From Abyssalbus ytuae (lineage in GTDB: Bacteria; Bacteroidota; Bacteroidia; Flavobacteriales; Flavobacteriaceae): 64,000 nt of DNA. Below the pieces are notes generated by a model. It worked only from the letters and a program-made list of their open reading frames with translations. It did no database searches and had not been told where the DNA came from. Numbering within the stretch: the first letter of the stretch is position 1; every line of letters begins with the position of its first letter. The stretch covers positions 2,170,001 through 2,234,000 of the forward strand of contig NZ_CP094358.1 of NCBI RefSeq assembly GCF_022807975.1, given 5' to 3'. The position numbers were made by a program, and so were the translations under genes. Below, in pieces: positions 19,692 to 45,232 of this stretch.

Positions 19692-20675
19692 ATGAAAAAA
19701 GTCATTTTGAGCATGGCTGTTTTGGCCATGTTGATGTTTTCTTGTGAAAAATCGGATCCTGTTAATGGAGAAGAAAACAATCTTAATTCGGAAAATCAGG
19801 AAACTTTTTCGATTGCTAAAGATCATTGTGGAACAATGGGAGTTTTGTCTGAAAAAATGAGTGAAGATCCTACTCTTGAGGTAAAAATGCAGGCAATAGA
19901 GCAATTTACCCAACAAGCTATTAAAAGTGGGTTAACCAAAAGGATTGCTTCCGATGGTGTATTGGAAATTCCTGTGGTTTTTCATGTAATTTACCGGACA
20001 AGCAGCGAAAATATTCCTAATTCGCAATTACAGGACCAACTTGATATTCTTAATGAAGACTTTAATATGAACAACCCCGGAAGAAATACTATCCCGGGTG
20101 AATTTACCCCTGTTGAAGCTAATATAGGGGTTCGTTTTGTTTTACAGGATGTTATAAGAAAGTATAATTCCAAAAGAAGATGGAACCCGGATGACAGAAT
20201 GAAGTTTACTTCCCAAGGGGGAAGTGATGTAGTGAATCCGCAGGAATATTTAAATATCTGGATTGTAAACAATATGCCGTATCAGGGAGGAAATATTCTT
20301 GGTTATGCCCAGTTTCCAGGAGGTAGCTGGTCTACCGATGGTGTAGTGCTCGATTACAGGGTTACGGGTTATACTGCCTGGGGTTTTACCGGTCGGACTG
20401 CCACACATGAAGTAGGCCACTGGATGAACCTTCGCCATATTTGGGGTGATGGTGGTTGTGGAGCTTCAGACTTTGTTGCCGACACTCCTGATTCTGATGG
20501 TCCCAGCAGTGGCTGCCCGATTTATCCTCAAGTTAATTGCGGCACCAATGATATGACTATGAATTTCATGGATTATTCCAATGATGAATGTATGAACATG
20601 TTTACTTTAGGCCAAAAAGACAGAATGATGGCAGTTTTTGCTAATGGAGGGTTCAGGGAGCAAATGGCACAATAA
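19692..20675 (+). CDS. M43 (pappalysin-like) zinc metalloprotease, lipoprotein
   Basis: The 327-residue protein has a lipoprotein signal with Cys18 (LMFSC) and the metzincin zinc motif HEVGHWMNLRHIWGD near 236-250; the Met-turn lies in MNFMDYSNDECMNMFTLGQ. M43 enzymes are extracellular endopeptidases. It lacks a T9SS sorting domain, so it should stay lipid-anchored. It is a paralogue of the exported protease at 39788-41971, sharing VIY..S.ENI near the start and the whole catalytic core. It sits between sufS and sufE with no obvious functional link, and a terminator follows it. Confidence 0.9.
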   Translation: MKKVILSMAVLAMLMFSCEKSDPVNGEENNLNSENQETFSIAKDHCGTMGVLSEKMSEDPTLEVKMQAIEQFTQQAIKSGLTKRIASDGVLEIPVVFHVIYRTSSENIPNSQLQDQLDILNEDFNMNNPGRNTIPGEFTPVEANIGVRFVLQDVIRKYNSKRRWNPDDRMKFTSQGGSDVVNPQEYLNIWIVNNMPYQGGNILGYAQFPGGSWSTDGVVLDYRVTGYTAWGFTGRTATHEVGHWMNLRHIWGDGGCGASDFVADTPDSDGPSSGCPIYPQVNCGTNDMTMNFMDYSNDECMNMFTLGQKDRMMAVFANGGFREQMAQ

Positions 20676-39787: not shown

Positions 39788-41971
39788 TTATTCTTTTATA
39801 AAGCGTTTAGTTGCTTTTTTACCATCGGCTTGTAGATTGATCATATAAGTACCTCTGCTTAATTGAGATACATCAATAGCTTTGGTAGAGGTTTCTCCTT
39901 TAGATACTTCCTGTCCAAGCATATTTATAATACTATACGTTATCTTTGAAGCAGTTGTTTTAACATTTATAAAGTTTCCAAAAACAGGATTAGGATACAT
40001 TATAAAAACAGAAGAATTATCTGTCTTTGCAATTACATCAATTGTATCTTGCCTGTTTGCATTCCCCAAACAGAAGTTATCGGATTGGGAAGAGCTAAAC
40101 GACCCCCCGGTCACCAATACAGTACCAGTGTCGGTATTGGTCAGGGTGTAGGACCCGTTTCCATAACTACAGCACATACCATCTCCATAGCTGTCATAGA
40201 ACACCAATGTATAGCAACCATCATCAATACACCCCGTAAGGTTTAAGGTAGAACCATCGGCCTGATCACCATAAGTTCCTCCTGAATAGGCAACAGCCCC
40301 ATTGCTGTCCAATATTTCCCAGCTGGTTTCTTCAGGATAATTATCAAAAGTGATGGAAAGGCTGATGTTGGTACATTCTGTGCCTCCACCTCCGCTACTG
40401 TCGGTTGTTAAGGTAATTGCGTCTATGGCCATATCGCTTGTATAGCTGGAACCTGTTACCCCGTTAAACCTTAGTTTAACTGTATCGCCTAAATAGGCAG
40501 ATAAGTTGACACTGGCAGTAAACCAGCTATCCCCCTGGTTTCCTGTGGTACTCCATAGGGAAGCCCATGTAGATCCGTTATCGATACTTGCTTCCAGGGT
40601 AAGGGTACCCATACTGCTGCCATACATGTGGTAGCTGAACTCAAAAGTTGCCTGAGCAGCGGAAGTTAAATCAAAACAGGGAGAATTTAGAAAGGCTGTT
40701 TTGTTGGGGTATCCGGTACCACTGGTTGATGATTCAATGAACATATAGAAACTTCCGTCGGCACCGGATGAAGGTCCGGTACTGCTGGATGGGGTTCCAC
40801 CTGAATCACGGGTCCAGTCTAAATTATCGTTTGAATCCTGAGTCCATGCCCCAATTCCGCTTTCAAAGGTTTCAGAATAAGGGAAAGTTGAAATTTCACC
40901 GGTACAGTTGGAAGAGGTTTGACAAGGCTCGCATGAACCACCGCAGTCCACACCGGTTTCATCCCCGTTTTGGATACCGTCCGAACAGGTTGGGGTTGAT
41001 CCACCTCCATCACACTTATCGGATAAGGCAAGACTTCTTCTTACTCCTCCTTCTGCCAAAACAGCACGCATTCTGTCTTTTTGTCCCTGGGTGTACAAGT
41101 TCATACATGAATCATCTGAATAATCCATATAATTCTGAACCATATCTACTGATCCACATGAAGAATGACCTGTACTGCATCCATAATTTGCAGCATCTGA
41201 AGTGGGTGTATCACTAACAAAATCATCTACACTACAACCACCATCACCCCATATATGGCGTAAATTGAAATAGTGCCCGACTTCGTGTGTGGTGGTTCTT
41301 CCCAAATCAAAGGGTGAAGACAGATAGAATCCGGATCCTTTGGCAGAACTTCCAAAATACTGAGGGCCCATAACAACTCCGTCGGTTGCCGCACTTCCTC
41401 CGGGAAATTGAGCATAGCCAAGGATTCCTCCTCCTATGTTGCATACCCACATATTCAAATATTGAGAAGTATCCCATGGGTCAACTCCTCCCTGAGCAGA
41501 ACTTTTCATTGCGTCATTAGTTCCCCATGAGGTTGTGGTGGAAGATTTTCTCGTGATTCCGGTAGTAGAATTTCCATTAGGATCCACTGTAGCCAGGCAA
41601 AACTCTATCTCTGTATCAGCAGCCTGAGACCATGTATTGTCTGCATCACTATTTAACCTCCTGAAATCTTCGTTTAATACATCTATTTGAGATTGTATTT
41701 GAGCCGTGCTGATATTTTCCTGAGAGTTACTGTAAATAACATGAACCACAACCGGAATGGTTATTATTGAACCATCAATACGACTTAATTCCCTGTTTTT
41801 AATAGCCTTTTGAGTAAAATTTTCAATTTCTGCCATTCTTTGTTTTAAAGCCGGATTCTTTTTCATCCGTTTTTCCAGGGACTCCATGGAAGCACAATTT
41901 CTTTGTTGTGCTAAAACACTTCCAAAAGCTGCAAAAAGAAAAAATGCAGCAATAGTAATTTTTTTAATCAT
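39788..41971 (-). CDS. Type IX-secreted M43 zinc metalloprotease
   Basis: The 727-residue protein has a signal peptide (1-22), a propeptide-like region and a metzincin catalytic domain with HEVGHYFNLRHIWGD from residue 229 and the Met-turn NYMDYSDDSCMNLYTQGQ. A Cys-rich segment (TPTCSDGIQNGDETGVDCGG near 330) follows. Next come a MAM-like beta-sandwich (FPYSETFESGIGAWTQ to MAIDAITL), a second Cys-containing beta domain and a C-terminal T9SS type A sorting domain ending KRFIKE. It should be exported and released or surface-attached. Residues 326-636 are almost identical to residues 555-865 of the S8 protease upstream. Confidence 0.93.
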   Translation of the reverse strand: MIKKITIAAFFLFAAFGSVLAQQRNCASMESLEKRMKKNPALKQRMAEIENFTQKAIKNRELSRIDGSIITIPVVVHVIYSNSQENISTAQIQSQIDVLNEDFRRLNSDADNTWSQAADTEIEFCLATVDPNGNSTTGITRKSSTTTSWGTNDAMKSSAQGGVDPWDTSQYLNMWVCNIGGGILGYAQFPGGSAATDGVVMGPQYFGSSAKGSGFYLSSPFDLGRTTTHEVGHYFNLRHIWGDGGCSVDDFVSDTPTSDAANYGCSTGHSSCGSVDMVQNYMDYSDDSCMNLYTQGQKDRMRAVLAEGGVRRSLALSDKCDGGGSTPTCSDGIQNGDETGVDCGGSCEPCQTSSNCTGEISTFPYSETFESGIGAWTQDSNDNLDWTRDSGGTPSSSTGPSSGADGSFYMFIESSTSGTGYPNKTAFLNSPCFDLTSAAQATFEFSYHMYGSSMGTLTLEASIDNGSTWASLWSTTGNQGDSWFTASVNLSAYLGDTVKLRFNGVTGSSYTSDMAIDAITLTTDSSGGGGTECTNISLSITFDNYPEETSWEILDSNGAVAYSGGTYGDQADGSTLNLTGCIDDGCYTLVFYDSYGDGMCCSYGNGSYTLTNTDTGTVLVTGGSFSSSQSDNFCLGNANRQDTIDVIAKTDNSSVFIMYPNPVFGNFINVKTTASKITYSIINMLGQEVSKGETSTKAIDVSQLSRGTYMINLQADGKKATKRFIKE
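40064..40996 (-). repeat. Long near-identical repeat, copy A (inside the M43 protease gene)
   Basis: This block aligns without gaps to 42638-43570 (constant offset 2574), with about eight mismatches by eye over 933 bases. It encodes the Cys-rich linker, the MAM-like domain and the next beta domain. Identity drops abruptly at both ends. Confidence 0.92.
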
Positions 41972-42358
41972 TTAGTTAAGGATTTAGGTTTAAAAAATAA
42001 TTTTTAAGCCTATTCTTAGATTTTGAGAGGGAGGGAGTAATAAAACGAGAGGTTACTTCTTTTAAGAAAGTATTAATAAATAAACTTGTAAAATAAAATA
42101 GTAATTCTCTCACTTTTAAGTTTTTAAATTCTGATTTTCAAATCTAAAAAAATAAGTTAAATTTTCATAAAATTTTCTAAATTTTTGTTACAAACATAAA
42201 GTTTTTATCTTTTTTTTGAATTTTATAACAACAAAAGTGCATTAGTCTAAGGATTGTGTATTGTAAATTTTAATCCTGCGGAATTTTTAAAATTCCGCAG
42301 GATAAGAAAAATAATATTTTGAGTTTTTTCAAAAAGTTTTATAAGTAAAACTTTGTAT
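41972..42358. other. Intergenic region between the two exported proteases
   Basis: These 387 bases are very A/T-rich. They hold the terminator of the S8 gene (42273-42303) and must contain the promoter of the M43 gene on the minus strand. I could not identify a convincing TAnnTTTG box there. No coding potential is visible. Confidence 0.5.
42273..42303 (-). terminator. Terminator of the S8 protease gene
   Basis: A 15-bp perfect inverted repeat (42273-42287 and 42289-42303, arm atcctgcggaatttt) has one central base and lies 55 bases past the stop codon. In practice the A/T centre would form the loop. A T-rich stretch follows on the minus strand. Confidence 0.75.
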
Positions 42359-45232
42359 TTACTCTTTAATAAAACGCTTAGACACCGTTTTACTATTTAT
42401 TTGCATATTTATAATATGAAGTCCTTTATTTAAAGTGGAAACATTGATTGATTTATTATTTGTTTCTCCTTCTAAAACTATTTGTCCCAGAGTATTAACA
42501 ATATTGTATTTAACTACAGAAGCAGATGTTTTTAAATTTAAAATATTTCCTTTTACAGGAACAGGATAAACAACAACATCCAATATTTCTTCATTTATAT
42601 CTGAAGCAGTATACATTAAATTACTTTGTGTGGTGTCCCCCAAACAGAAGTTATCGGATTGGGAAGAGCTAAACGACCCCCCGGTCACCAATACAGTACC
42701 AGTGTCGGTATTGGTCAGGGTGTAGGACCCGTTTCCATAATTACAACACATACCATCTCCATAACTGTCATAGAACACCAATGTATAGCAACCATCATCA
42801 ATACACCCGGTAAGGTTTAAGGTAGAACCATCGGCCTGATCACCATAAGTTCCTCCTGAATAGGCAACAGCCCCATTGCTGTCCAATATTTCCCAGCTGG
42901 TTTCTTCAGGATAATTATCAAAAGTGATGGAAAGGCTGATGTTGGTACATTCTGTGCTTCCACCTCCGCTACTGTCGGTTGTTAAGCTAATTGCGTCTAT
43001 GGCCATATCGCTTGTATAGCTGGAACCTGTTACCCCGTTAAACCTTAGTTTAACTGTATCGCCTAAATAGGCAGATAAGTTGACACTGGCAGTAAACCAG
43101 CTATCCCCCTGGTTTCCTGTGGTACTCCATAGGGAAGCCCATGTAGATCCGTTATCGGTACTTGCTTCCAGGGTAAGGGTACCCATACTGCTGCCATACA
43201 TGTGGTAGCTGAACTCAAAAGTTGCCTGAGCAGCGGAAGTTAAATCAAAACAGGGAGAATTTAGAAAGGCTGTTTTGTTGGGGTATCCGGTACCACTGGT
43301 TGATGATTCAATGAACATATAGAAACTTCCGTCGGCACCGGATGAAGGTCCGGTACTGCTGGATGGGGTTCCAGCTGAATCACGGGTCCAGTCTAAATTA
43401 TCGTTTGAATCCTGAGTCCATGCCCCAATTCCGCTTTCAAAGGTTTCAGAATAAGGGAAAGTTGAAATTTCACCGGTACAGTTGGAAGAGGTTTGACAAG
43501 GCTCGCATGAACCACCGCAGTCCACACCGGTTTCATCCCCGTTTTGGATACCGTCCGAACAGGTTGGGGTGGAACCTGAACTGTTTATTCCAGTCACTAT
43601 TAATGTAAAAGCTTGGCTTCCCGTACTGAGAGTTCCTTTATGAGTAACTGTGATGGTATAACTGCCGGAGGCAGCTTCAACATCTACCCTTTCATAGGGA
43701 TCAACATCATTATCTCCTTTTCCGTTGGTAGTTAACCCTGTTAATTTCCAGGGTGTATAAGTGGTTGATCCTTTGGTTACCCTAATATCCAAATCATTCA
43801 CTAAAACGGGAGTAGACGAATTAGTTACTGTAGTAGTTGTGCCTGGTAAATCTGTCCATGAAACAGACGCAATCAAATCGTTAACATTGTCAGAATCTAC
43901 GGTAATCTGATAAGTTTGCCCGTTGGTTAGGGTTAATTCCTGAATTAATGAAGTACTGCCATTATTGGTAATAGACATGGCAGCATTTTTTGAATTTAAC
44001 AGTCCCCAGCCATAAACAGCATCAGGCCCGGCAGGTCCTGCATCGTCAGCAGTATGTAATGCTATTCCTTTTAAAGAGGCGGCTCTTAAAAAAGATCCGT
44101 TTACATTGTTGGCATGTTCCTGAAGTAAAAGTAAAGATCCTGCTACATTTGGAGATGCCATCGAAGTTCCTGTTAAACTATAGTAATCGGCATCATTTCT
44201 ATGAAGAGTAGAAATTACATCTGTTCCGTTGCCGGTAATATCCGGTTTTATACGAAAATCATCAGTAGGTCCTTCACTGCTGCTGCTGTTTATTGTCACC
44301 GAAATAAGATTTCCGCTACTATCAACATTTGCATCCTGTGCATTGGCTACTACCAAATTATTTTTAGATGTAGAGTGGCCGGTTAATTTATCGTAACTTG
44401 AATTACCTCCCAGAGGAGCACCGTTAGCGGTGTTATCATCTCCGTCATTTCCGGCAGCCACTACCATTAAATAATAGGGGGCATTGTACATGAGTTCATC
44501 CCAGTCTCTTGAATCATCAATATAACCACCAAAGTAATAATCGGGTAACCAAGCTTCTCCGGTATCGGGGTCTCTTGTAGCATATCCATAAGAGTGGTTT
44601 GATATTAACATACCGTTATTGGCGGCAGAAGTAGCTTCAGAAATATCGCTGTTCCAGTCATAGCCTATTGCCTGTGCATAGGGAGCCATGCCTTTTGCGT
44701 TTGCCTGAACACCCGATGCTATTATAGTTCCTGTAACATGAGCAGAATGATAATGAACTGTAGTTGTTCCATCTCCCACAGAGAATCTGTTTGTGCCTCC
44801 TGCACCATCATATTCCTGATGAGTTGCCAGGGCCAAACCGCCGTCCCAAATATGAGCAATCATATTCTGGCCGTTAAGGCTTAAGCCCAGGGAACCTCCC
44901 GAGTTTAAATGATTTGTCCTTGTGGAAAAGGATGCGTCTGCATTAAAGGTAGTATAATAAACTGGCCGACCTTCTTCCGATACTTTTTGTAGTTCCAGGT
45001 AAGTGTTGTTTTTACTAATTGTAACCGGCCAGTTATTTATTTTAGCCAATTGAAGGGCTCTTTGTTTTTCATTCCCTTCTTTTTGCTGGAATTTGTTTTT
45101 CAGCTGTAAAATTTGTTGTTTATTATACCGCTCTGTAATAATTTTTTTTTGAGGCCCGGTTTGGGCAAATAAGGACTGAAACAGACCTAACGAACAGACC
45201 AAAAGAAAACTTTTGATGTAGCTTTTTTTCAT
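42359..45232 (-). CDS. Type IX-secreted S8 (subtilisin-like) serine protease
   Basis: The 957-residue protein has a signal peptide (1-24) and a subtilase domain with Asp130 (AHIWDGG), His165 (HSAHVTGTI) and Ser357 (GTSMASPNVAG). A jelly-roll domain of the kind found behind KP43-type subtilases spans about 425-545 and ends YTITVTHKGTL...FTLIVTG. Then come the Cys-rich linker, the MAM-like domain and a second beta domain (555-865) shared with the M43 protease, and a T9SS type A sorting domain ending KRFIKE. It should be an exported protease with add-on binding domains. Confidence 0.94.
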   Translation of the reverse strand: MKKSYIKSFLLVCSLGLFQSLFAQTGPQKKIITERYNKQQILQLKNKFQQKEGNEKQRALQLAKINNWPVTISKNNTYLELQKVSEEGRPVYYTTFNADASFSTRTNHLNSGGSLGLSLNGQNMIAHIWDGGLALATHQEYDGAGGTNRFSVGDGTTTVHYHSAHVTGTIIASGVQANAKGMAPYAQAIGYDWNSDISEATSAANNGMLISNHSYGYATRDPDTGEAWLPDYYFGGYIDDSRDWDELMYNAPYYLMVVAAGNDGDDNTANGAPLGGNSSYDKLTGHSTSKNNLVVANAQDANVDSSGNLISVTINSSSSEGPTDDFRIKPDITGNGTDVISTLHRNDADYYSLTGTSMASPNVAGSLLLLQEHANNVNGSFLRAASLKGIALHTADDAGPAGPDAVYGWGLLNSKNAAMSITNNGSTSLIQELTLTNGQTYQITVDSDNVNDLIASVSWTDLPGTTTTVTNSSTPVLVNDLDIRVTKGSTTYTPWKLTGLTTNGKGDNDVDPYERVDVEAASGSYTITVTHKGTLSTGSQAFTLIVTGINSSGSTPTCSDGIQNGDETGVDCGGSCEPCQTSSNCTGEISTFPYSETFESGIGAWTQDSNDNLDWTRDSAGTPSSSTGPSSGADGSFYMFIESSTSGTGYPNKTAFLNSPCFDLTSAAQATFEFSYHMYGSSMGTLTLEASTDNGSTWASLWSTTGNQGDSWFTASVNLSAYLGDTVKLRFNGVTGSSYTSDMAIDAISLTTDSSGGGSTECTNISLSITFDNYPEETSWEILDSNGAVAYSGGTYGDQADGSTLNLTGCIDDGCYTLVFYDSYGDGMCCNYGNGSYTLTNTDTGTVLVTGGSFSSSQSDNFCLGDTTQSNLMYTASDINEEILDVVVYPVPVKGNILNLKTSASVVKYNIVNTLGQIVLEGETNNKSINVSTLNKGLHIINMQINSKTVSKRFIKE
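42638..43570 (-). repeat. Long near-identical repeat, copy B (inside the S8 protease gene)
   Basis: This is the partner of 40064-40996: same strand, same reading frame, ungapped, about 99 percent identical by eye. Outside these limits the two genes differ fully, except for weak similarity in the sorting domains. Confidence 0.92.

Follow-up and report, generated by a model that had tools for sequence, protein, structure and literature searches.

Evidence for recent copying of a MAM-bearing module between two neighbouring T9SS protease genes of Abyssalbus ytuae

How do two adjacent protease genes with unrelated catalytic heads come to hold almost the same 933 bases of DNA? The question arises in a 64,000-nucleotide stretch of the Abyssalbus ytuae genome (contig NZ_CP094358.1, positions 2,170,001 to 2,234,000), referred to here as the window, in which an S8 protease gene is followed on the minus strand, after a gap of 387 bases, by an M43 protease gene. 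The block common to both genes encodes, in order, a Cys-rich linker, a MAM domain and a 107-residue domain, and it is flanked by unlike catalytic domains on one side and unlike sorting tails on the other. The linker and the last domain are called CSDG and Cmod, labels coined in this analysis. The features, in window positions, are as follows.

39788 to 41971, minus strand: M43 (pappalysin-like) metalloprotease gene, 727 amino acids, with T9SS type A sorting domain (Pfam, NCBIfam)
40997 to 41971, minus strand: N-terminal and catalytic part of the M43 protein, unshared (alignment, Pfam)
40064 to 40996, minus strand: shared block, M43 copy, residues 326-636, with CSDG linker, MAM and Cmod (alignment, Pfam, predicted structure)
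40403 to 40870, minus strand: MAM domain (PF00629), M43 copy (Pfam)
40064 to 40384, minus strand: Cmod, M43 copy, 107 amino acids, a predicted beta-sandwich
39788 to 40063, minus strand: sorting tail of the M43 protein, unshared at the DNA level (alignment, Pfam, NCBIfam)
42359 to 45232, minus strand: S8 (subtilase) protease gene, 957 amino acids, with T9SS type A sorting domain (Pfam, NCBIfam)
43571 to 45232, minus strand: N-terminal and catalytic part of the S8 protein, unshared (alignment, Pfam)
42638 to 43570, minus strand: shared block, S8 copy, residues 555-865 of 957 (alignment, Pfam)
42977 to 43444, minus strand: MAM domain (PF00629), S8 copy (Pfam)
42638 to 42958, minus strand: Cmod, S8 copy, a conserved domain
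42359 to 42637, minus strand: sorting tail of the S8 protein, unshared at the DNA level (alignment, Pfam, NCBIfam)

Pfam finds Peptidase_S8, MAM and Por_Secre_tail in one protein and Peptidase_M43, MAM and Por_Secre_tail in the other. The M43 head scores 63.6 bits against PF05572 (cut-off 23), the S8 head 89.5 bits against PF00082 (cut-off 21.8), and the MAM domains 90.9 and 91.7 bits against PF00629 (cut-off 26.4). The T9SS type A sorting domain is recognized in both proteins by TIGR04183 (55.1 and 33.3 bits, cut-off 23) and by PF18962 (48.7 and 33.1 bits, cut-off 27), which marks both proteases as T9SS type A cargo with predicted export. The initial annotation of this locus, made from the letters alone, had held that the catalytic and sorting regions differ, and so they do: PF05572 stands against PF00082, and the Por_Secre_tail domains on both proteins have different sequences. 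Hmmscan of both proteins gave no Pfam match for the CSDG linker, and the window copy of Cmod has neither a Pfam match nor a PDB sequence match up to E 1, while invariant D, Y, G and C positions run through 38 aligned copies of this domain.

Several further features accompany the pair. The zinc site of the M43 protease reads HEVGHYFNLRH in translation (gene 39788-41971, minus strand), with N at a position where the M43 zinc motif has G. A terminator-like hairpin with a 17-pair stem lies just 3' of the M43 gene (window 39770-39734, minus strand), and a promoter scan yielded 18 matches against 18.1 in shuffles, that is, no excess. A second M43 protease match falls in a 335-codon frame at window 19821-20669 on the plus strand, with no MAM domain there.

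In the DNA alignment, window 40064-40996 matches 42638-43570 at an offset of 2574, over 933 bases without a gap and with eight mismatches, exactly as the initial annotation had described it. The mismatches lie at window positions 40167, 40172, 40190, 40235, 40384, 40413, 40584 and 40800; five of them change the amino acid and three are silent. At either end of the block the match breaks off sharply, with 10 of 30 and 7 of 30 identities in the first 30-bp bins wholly outside the block, so that a chance match of the two copies is out of the question. The block encodes 311 residues, starts and ends on codon boundaries, and is read in one frame common to both genes, starting at gene offsets of 975 and 1662, each divisible by 3. 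A crossover between the two direct repeats would therefore excise 2574 bp and leave a single in-frame gene with the S8 head and the M43 tail, an outcome predicted at the outset that is correct as arithmetic from offsets and frames.

One account of such likeness is that strong protein-level selection has kept an old shared domain identical, and the wide occurrence of MAM-Cmod in Bacteroidota speaks in its favour. The synonymous divergence of the two copies contradicts it: by the NG86 method, dN is 0.0069 and dS 0.0145, so that the silent sites are conserved as well, as the initial annotation had read them when it argued for recent duplication or conversion rather than selection alone. Among the matches listed outside the own genome, moreover, none exceeds about 64% identity over most of the block, a ceiling drawn from an alignment of 55 and from 80 loci kept of at least 548, with matches listed for 299 family genomes. 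The protein is thus not under a constraint that keeps it identical, and this explanation deserves next to no credence. Among the matches listed (80 loci kept of at least 548 confirmed), the nearest modules in other genomes reach about 63-64% identity, and at least 136 of the 299 family genomes, the own genome counted, have some module match at E 1e-10. Among the proteins checked, the module or its MAM part occurs on S8, M43, M12B-like reprolysin, M4 and endonuclease I proteins. Modules of this kind are thus old and have been shuffled widely; what is recent is the close likeness of the window pair.

A second account is technical, namely that the assembler wrote one copy twice, a doubt that the initial annotation had itself raised as a collapsed or duplicated assembly. 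Repeats of such kind can break assemblies, as with the hagA, rgpA and kgp repeats according to PMC5266723, and in another genome (G178) two module copies both reach contig ends. The A. ytuae assembly, by contrast, is a single contig of 4,365,036 bp, in which each copy has its own flanks, the frames are intact and the copies differ at eight sites, three of them silent; an artefact is accordingly very unlikely. The whole genome holds the block at two places only in a DNA search, and a MAM search returned two domains, both inside the block copies, which answers the question of further copies. An open frame of 746 codons gives the third protein match in the own genome, over a stretch of the linker (query residues 2-35). 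The genome has 23 Por_Secre_tail matches, 22 of them above cut-off, and six such matches lie on one strand inside 12 kb (G000:C1:828470-840235).

Block sharing between neighbouring genes with unrelated heads recurs in other genomes, and this recurrence is the part that goes beyond the earlier reading of the locus. In G161, neighbouring M36 and Trypsin_2 genes share a block with 95.6% identity over 1336 bp, and in G082 a pair of neighbours, one an M14 gene and the other with a Sortilin-Vps10 match, shares 96.8% over 1508 bp, with a dS of 0.049. In Hp32 (L094), which comes from another collection and stands outside the counts given below, neighbouring S8 and M43 genes share 79% over 1226 bp; their module dS of 0.70 indicates that this sharing is old. 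Weaker cases include M36/M4 in G217 (82%), where an M43 gene sits between the two sharing genes, S8/M12B in G119 (77%) and M43/M12B in G130 (75%).

The effect of distance was examined in 62 pairs from 22 genomes, of which 15, the window pair included, are less than 8 kb apart and 47 are not; the window pair was excluded from the tests. A shared stretch of at least 300 bp is present in 9 of 14 near pairs against 8 of 47 dispersed ones (Fisher p 0.0013), and identity of at least 90% in 2 of 14 against 0 of 47 (p 0.0497), values that serve as support and not as a rate, since the regions were selected where matches to the window module cluster and the pairs are not independent. Both G178 copies reach contig ends; they were counted as dispersed but may lie side by side. 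No stretch of at least 300 bp is shared in five of the 14 near pairs, that of G068 included.

The age of such exchange can be judged in G161, where four proteins carry one type of MAM plus sorting-tail module: an M36, a trypsin-like and an M28 protein and an unassigned one of 735 residues (L199, L250, L308). Its congener G322 has the M36 orthologue (L307), cut by a contig end, while a second congener, G323, gave no match at E 1e-60. Over 88 residues, the catalytic end of the G322 protein is 96.6% identical to the G161 M36 protein and has no significant match in the other three G161 proteins. Between G161 and G322, dS is 1.27 for the catalytic end and 0.91 for the module, while within G161 the modules of the M36 and trypsin-like proteins differ by a dS of only 0.137. 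Since the within-genome value lies below the between-species value, the exchange is younger than the species split: the M36/trypsin-like exchange in G161 post-dates the separation from G322. Copies within the genome are here closer than orthologues, which is the pattern of concerted evolution.

This comparison bears on whether the window pair reflects one recent copying or ongoing, repeated gene conversion in the A. ytuae genome. Repeated conversion would agree with the exchange seen in G161 after its split from G322, and a 933-bp direct repeat 2574 bp apart is suited to recombination. Of the eight mismatches, four lie inside 68 bp; the simulated p of 0.068 gives no clear clustering, which counts against repeated conversion, and clustering was dropped as evidence. 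Repeated conversion at this locus is entertained as a possibility that falls short of an expectation. The near-identity extends to silent sites, the block stops abruptly where domains end, the heads are unrelated and the pattern recurs in other genomes; together these findings support a recent transfer, by copying or conversion, of a MAM-bearing module from one T9SS cargo gene to another. The modular swapping of MAM-like domains among T9SS cargo that had been proposed from the sequence is supported by the same findings.

The direction of copying can be approached through the relatives of the two proteases, taken in whole-genome searches at no less than 400 bits to the window M43 part and no less than 580 bits for S8 proteins. 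With window proteins excluded, identical sequences counted once and close species left unmerged, the CSDG linker begins at most 20 residues away from the end of the catalytic part in 19 of 24 M43 relatives and in 0 of 28 S8 relatives. When all loci are taken, 30 of 36 M43 and 0 of 47 S8 relatives show this, a tally that includes loci found by the linker pattern and so favours linker carriers. A linker that adjoins the M43 but never the S8 catalytic end in relatives suggests that the block formed on the M43 gene and was most likely copied from there into the S8 gene. Among the 47 S8 relatives, 36 have MAM or Cmod, in 30 of them at least 340 residues past the catalytic part; in G068, the stretch from the S8 catalytic part to MAM/Cmod is taken up by fn3, GEVED and Ig-like domains. 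The same genome carries an S8 and then an M43 gene in the order and orientation of the window, with no shared stretch of 300 bp. Gene order without the shared block indicates that the S8-M43 neighbourhood is probably older than the block. As a separate observation on the linker, a 2182-codon frame at L084:2456-9001 contains dozens of tandem copies of a Cys-rich linker of about 25 residues.

Other evidence would fit a reverse direction or an outside source, in which the module came from another Bacteroidota lineage, or was on the S8 gene first, and then entered both proteases. MAM-Cmod pairs are found in 6 of 36 M43 against 19 of 47 S8 relatives when all loci are considered, which counts against an M43 origin; among whole-genome loci the figures are 3 of 24 and 3 of 28. 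In the module tree, the window pair joins neither set of Flavobacteriaceae modules, S8 or M43, and sits on a long branch close to modules from other Bacteroidota, so that the MAM-Cmod part may derive from an outside source. The pair groups with eight modules from outside Flavobacteriaceae at SH-aLRT 96 in a first tree (two identical of 73 rows dropped) and 98 in a second (six long-branch rows of 71 dropped). Base composition points the same way, with a GC3 of 0.44 in the block against 0.29 and 0.31 in the heads and 0.18 and 0.14 in the tails, while the module-minus-head difference ranges from -0.078 to +0.019 in 29 rows of module-bearing relatives (two proteins appear twice). In 464 kb of the own genome, only 6 of 179 genes of at least 311 codons reach the GC3 of the block in some window.

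Against this stand the long branch itself and an AU test in which grouping with the Flavobacteriaceae M43 modules is unrejected (p-AU 0.114), so that placement by the tree is not decisive; and 7% of 1100 own-genome windows of 311 codons reach the block GC3, which leaves foreign origin by base composition merely suggestive. Among the 12 own-genome windows of highest GC3, 11 lie in one gene. An open frame of at least 3710 codons, extending beyond the fetched stretch G000:C1:2908870-2919999 (L288), has windows with GC3 up to 0.58. The linker position, which favours M43, speaks against the reverse direction. An outside origin of the module is thus treated as a lead, and the reverse or outside route as a whole appears rather unlikely. 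For the sorting tails, phmmer scores of both against the relatives overlap and leave the lineages unseparated.

What the module does may be approached through its predicted structure. AlphaFold2 modelled the block with a mean pLDDT of 82.8; residues 1-28, which make up most of the linker, fall below 50. The MAM part matches the fold of a MAM crystal structure, 8yt7, at Z 21.1, and Cmod alone forms a confident beta-sandwich (pLDDT 88.5). The best fold matches of Cmod are calcium-dependent carbohydrate-binding modules of the CBM60 type, 2xfd and 2xhh, at Z 7.5, with a best Foldseek E of 0.007. This likeness was considered too weak to claim kinship, as a Z below 8 may reflect the mere common beta-sandwich, and Cmod differs from these modules in having no PDB sequence or Pfam match. 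MAM and adhesin domains bind partners, from which the shared module can be regarded as a putative binding or anchoring part common to the two enzymes.

Known systems offer partial parallels. Meprin-type MAM metalloproteases are animal proteins with astacin-type heads; they resemble the window pair in joining MAM to a metalloprotease head, and the window MAM matches promeprin beta at Z 18.8, whereas the pair has M43 and S8 heads and bacterial sorting tails. Nonreciprocal recombination between the two Arg-gingipain genes has reportedly been proposed in a paper cited by PMC8050853; it resembles the present case in that a portion of a T9SS protease gene is exchanged non-reciprocally, and differs from it in involving two genes for one kind of protease. 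The closer comparison is with hagA, rgpA and kgp of Porphyromonas gingivalis, in which, according to PMC5266723, identical repeats within and between genes encode adhesins, occur in combinatorial order and recombine between strains. In the same paper, RgpA and Kgp have one gingipain-type catalytic domain, and HagA is described as having none. The gingipain/HagA system, with its cleaved adhesin domains K1-K5, shares with the window pair both T9SS cargo and near-identical C-terminal modules across genes of one genome, and the window MAM part matches the Kgp K1, K3 and K2 structures at Z 16.7, 15.8 and 15.7. In contrast, the window heads belong to unrelated peptidase families (M43 and S8), the window genes are direct neighbours, and hmmscan gave MAM, M43, S8, Por_Secre_tail and GH114_assoc, with no gingipain or cleaved-adhesin Pfam domain at E 0.001. 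The window pair works like the gingipain/HagA system and stands outside it by its domains. A connection with AlpA1, the algicidal protease of Kordia algicida, was dropped, because AlpA1 is a 45-kDa protein according to PMC10565126, against 1262 codons in the module-bearing S8 frame of that species. Searches of an open-licence library returned, among the papers listed, no report of module sharing of such kind in flavobacteria, which leaves its absence unproven.

Taken together, the best explanation, which we regard as probable, is that the DNA of the 311-residue module was copied non-reciprocally. The M43 gene is the most likely donor; in the S8 gene, the copy would have taken the place of that gene's own domains, which had linked its head to the sorting tail. 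An old S8-M43 neighbourhood on one strand would have come first, and linker, MAM and Cmod would have been assembled on the M43 gene. A copy of the M43 module would then have overwritten this linking stretch of the S8 gene, presumably by homologous recombination or gene conversion, which the short distance and the older homology of MAM-type modules would help. As a common binding or anchoring part, the module could give different enzymes one target.

The silent-site comparison of a related species pair shows that T9SS proteases of unrelated peptidase families can pass C-terminal modules from gene to gene after a species split, and some relatives show a pattern in which exported enzymes seem to trade tails. 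In practical terms, such repeats can break draft assemblies, and trees built from these C-terminal regions can mislead. In biological terms, the finding raises the questions of whether the choice of substrate or surface lies with the module and by what means bacteria could re-aim a whole set of secreted enzymes. More speculatively, the exported-enzyme clusters of Flavobacteriaceae might act as an exchange array in which neighbouring T9SS cargo genes repeatedly overwrite each other's C-terminal binding modules, keeping the enzymes co-targeted. If this tentative proposal is true, different enzymes would stay on one target and switch target together, and G161, with one module type on four proteins, would represent an advanced state of the array.
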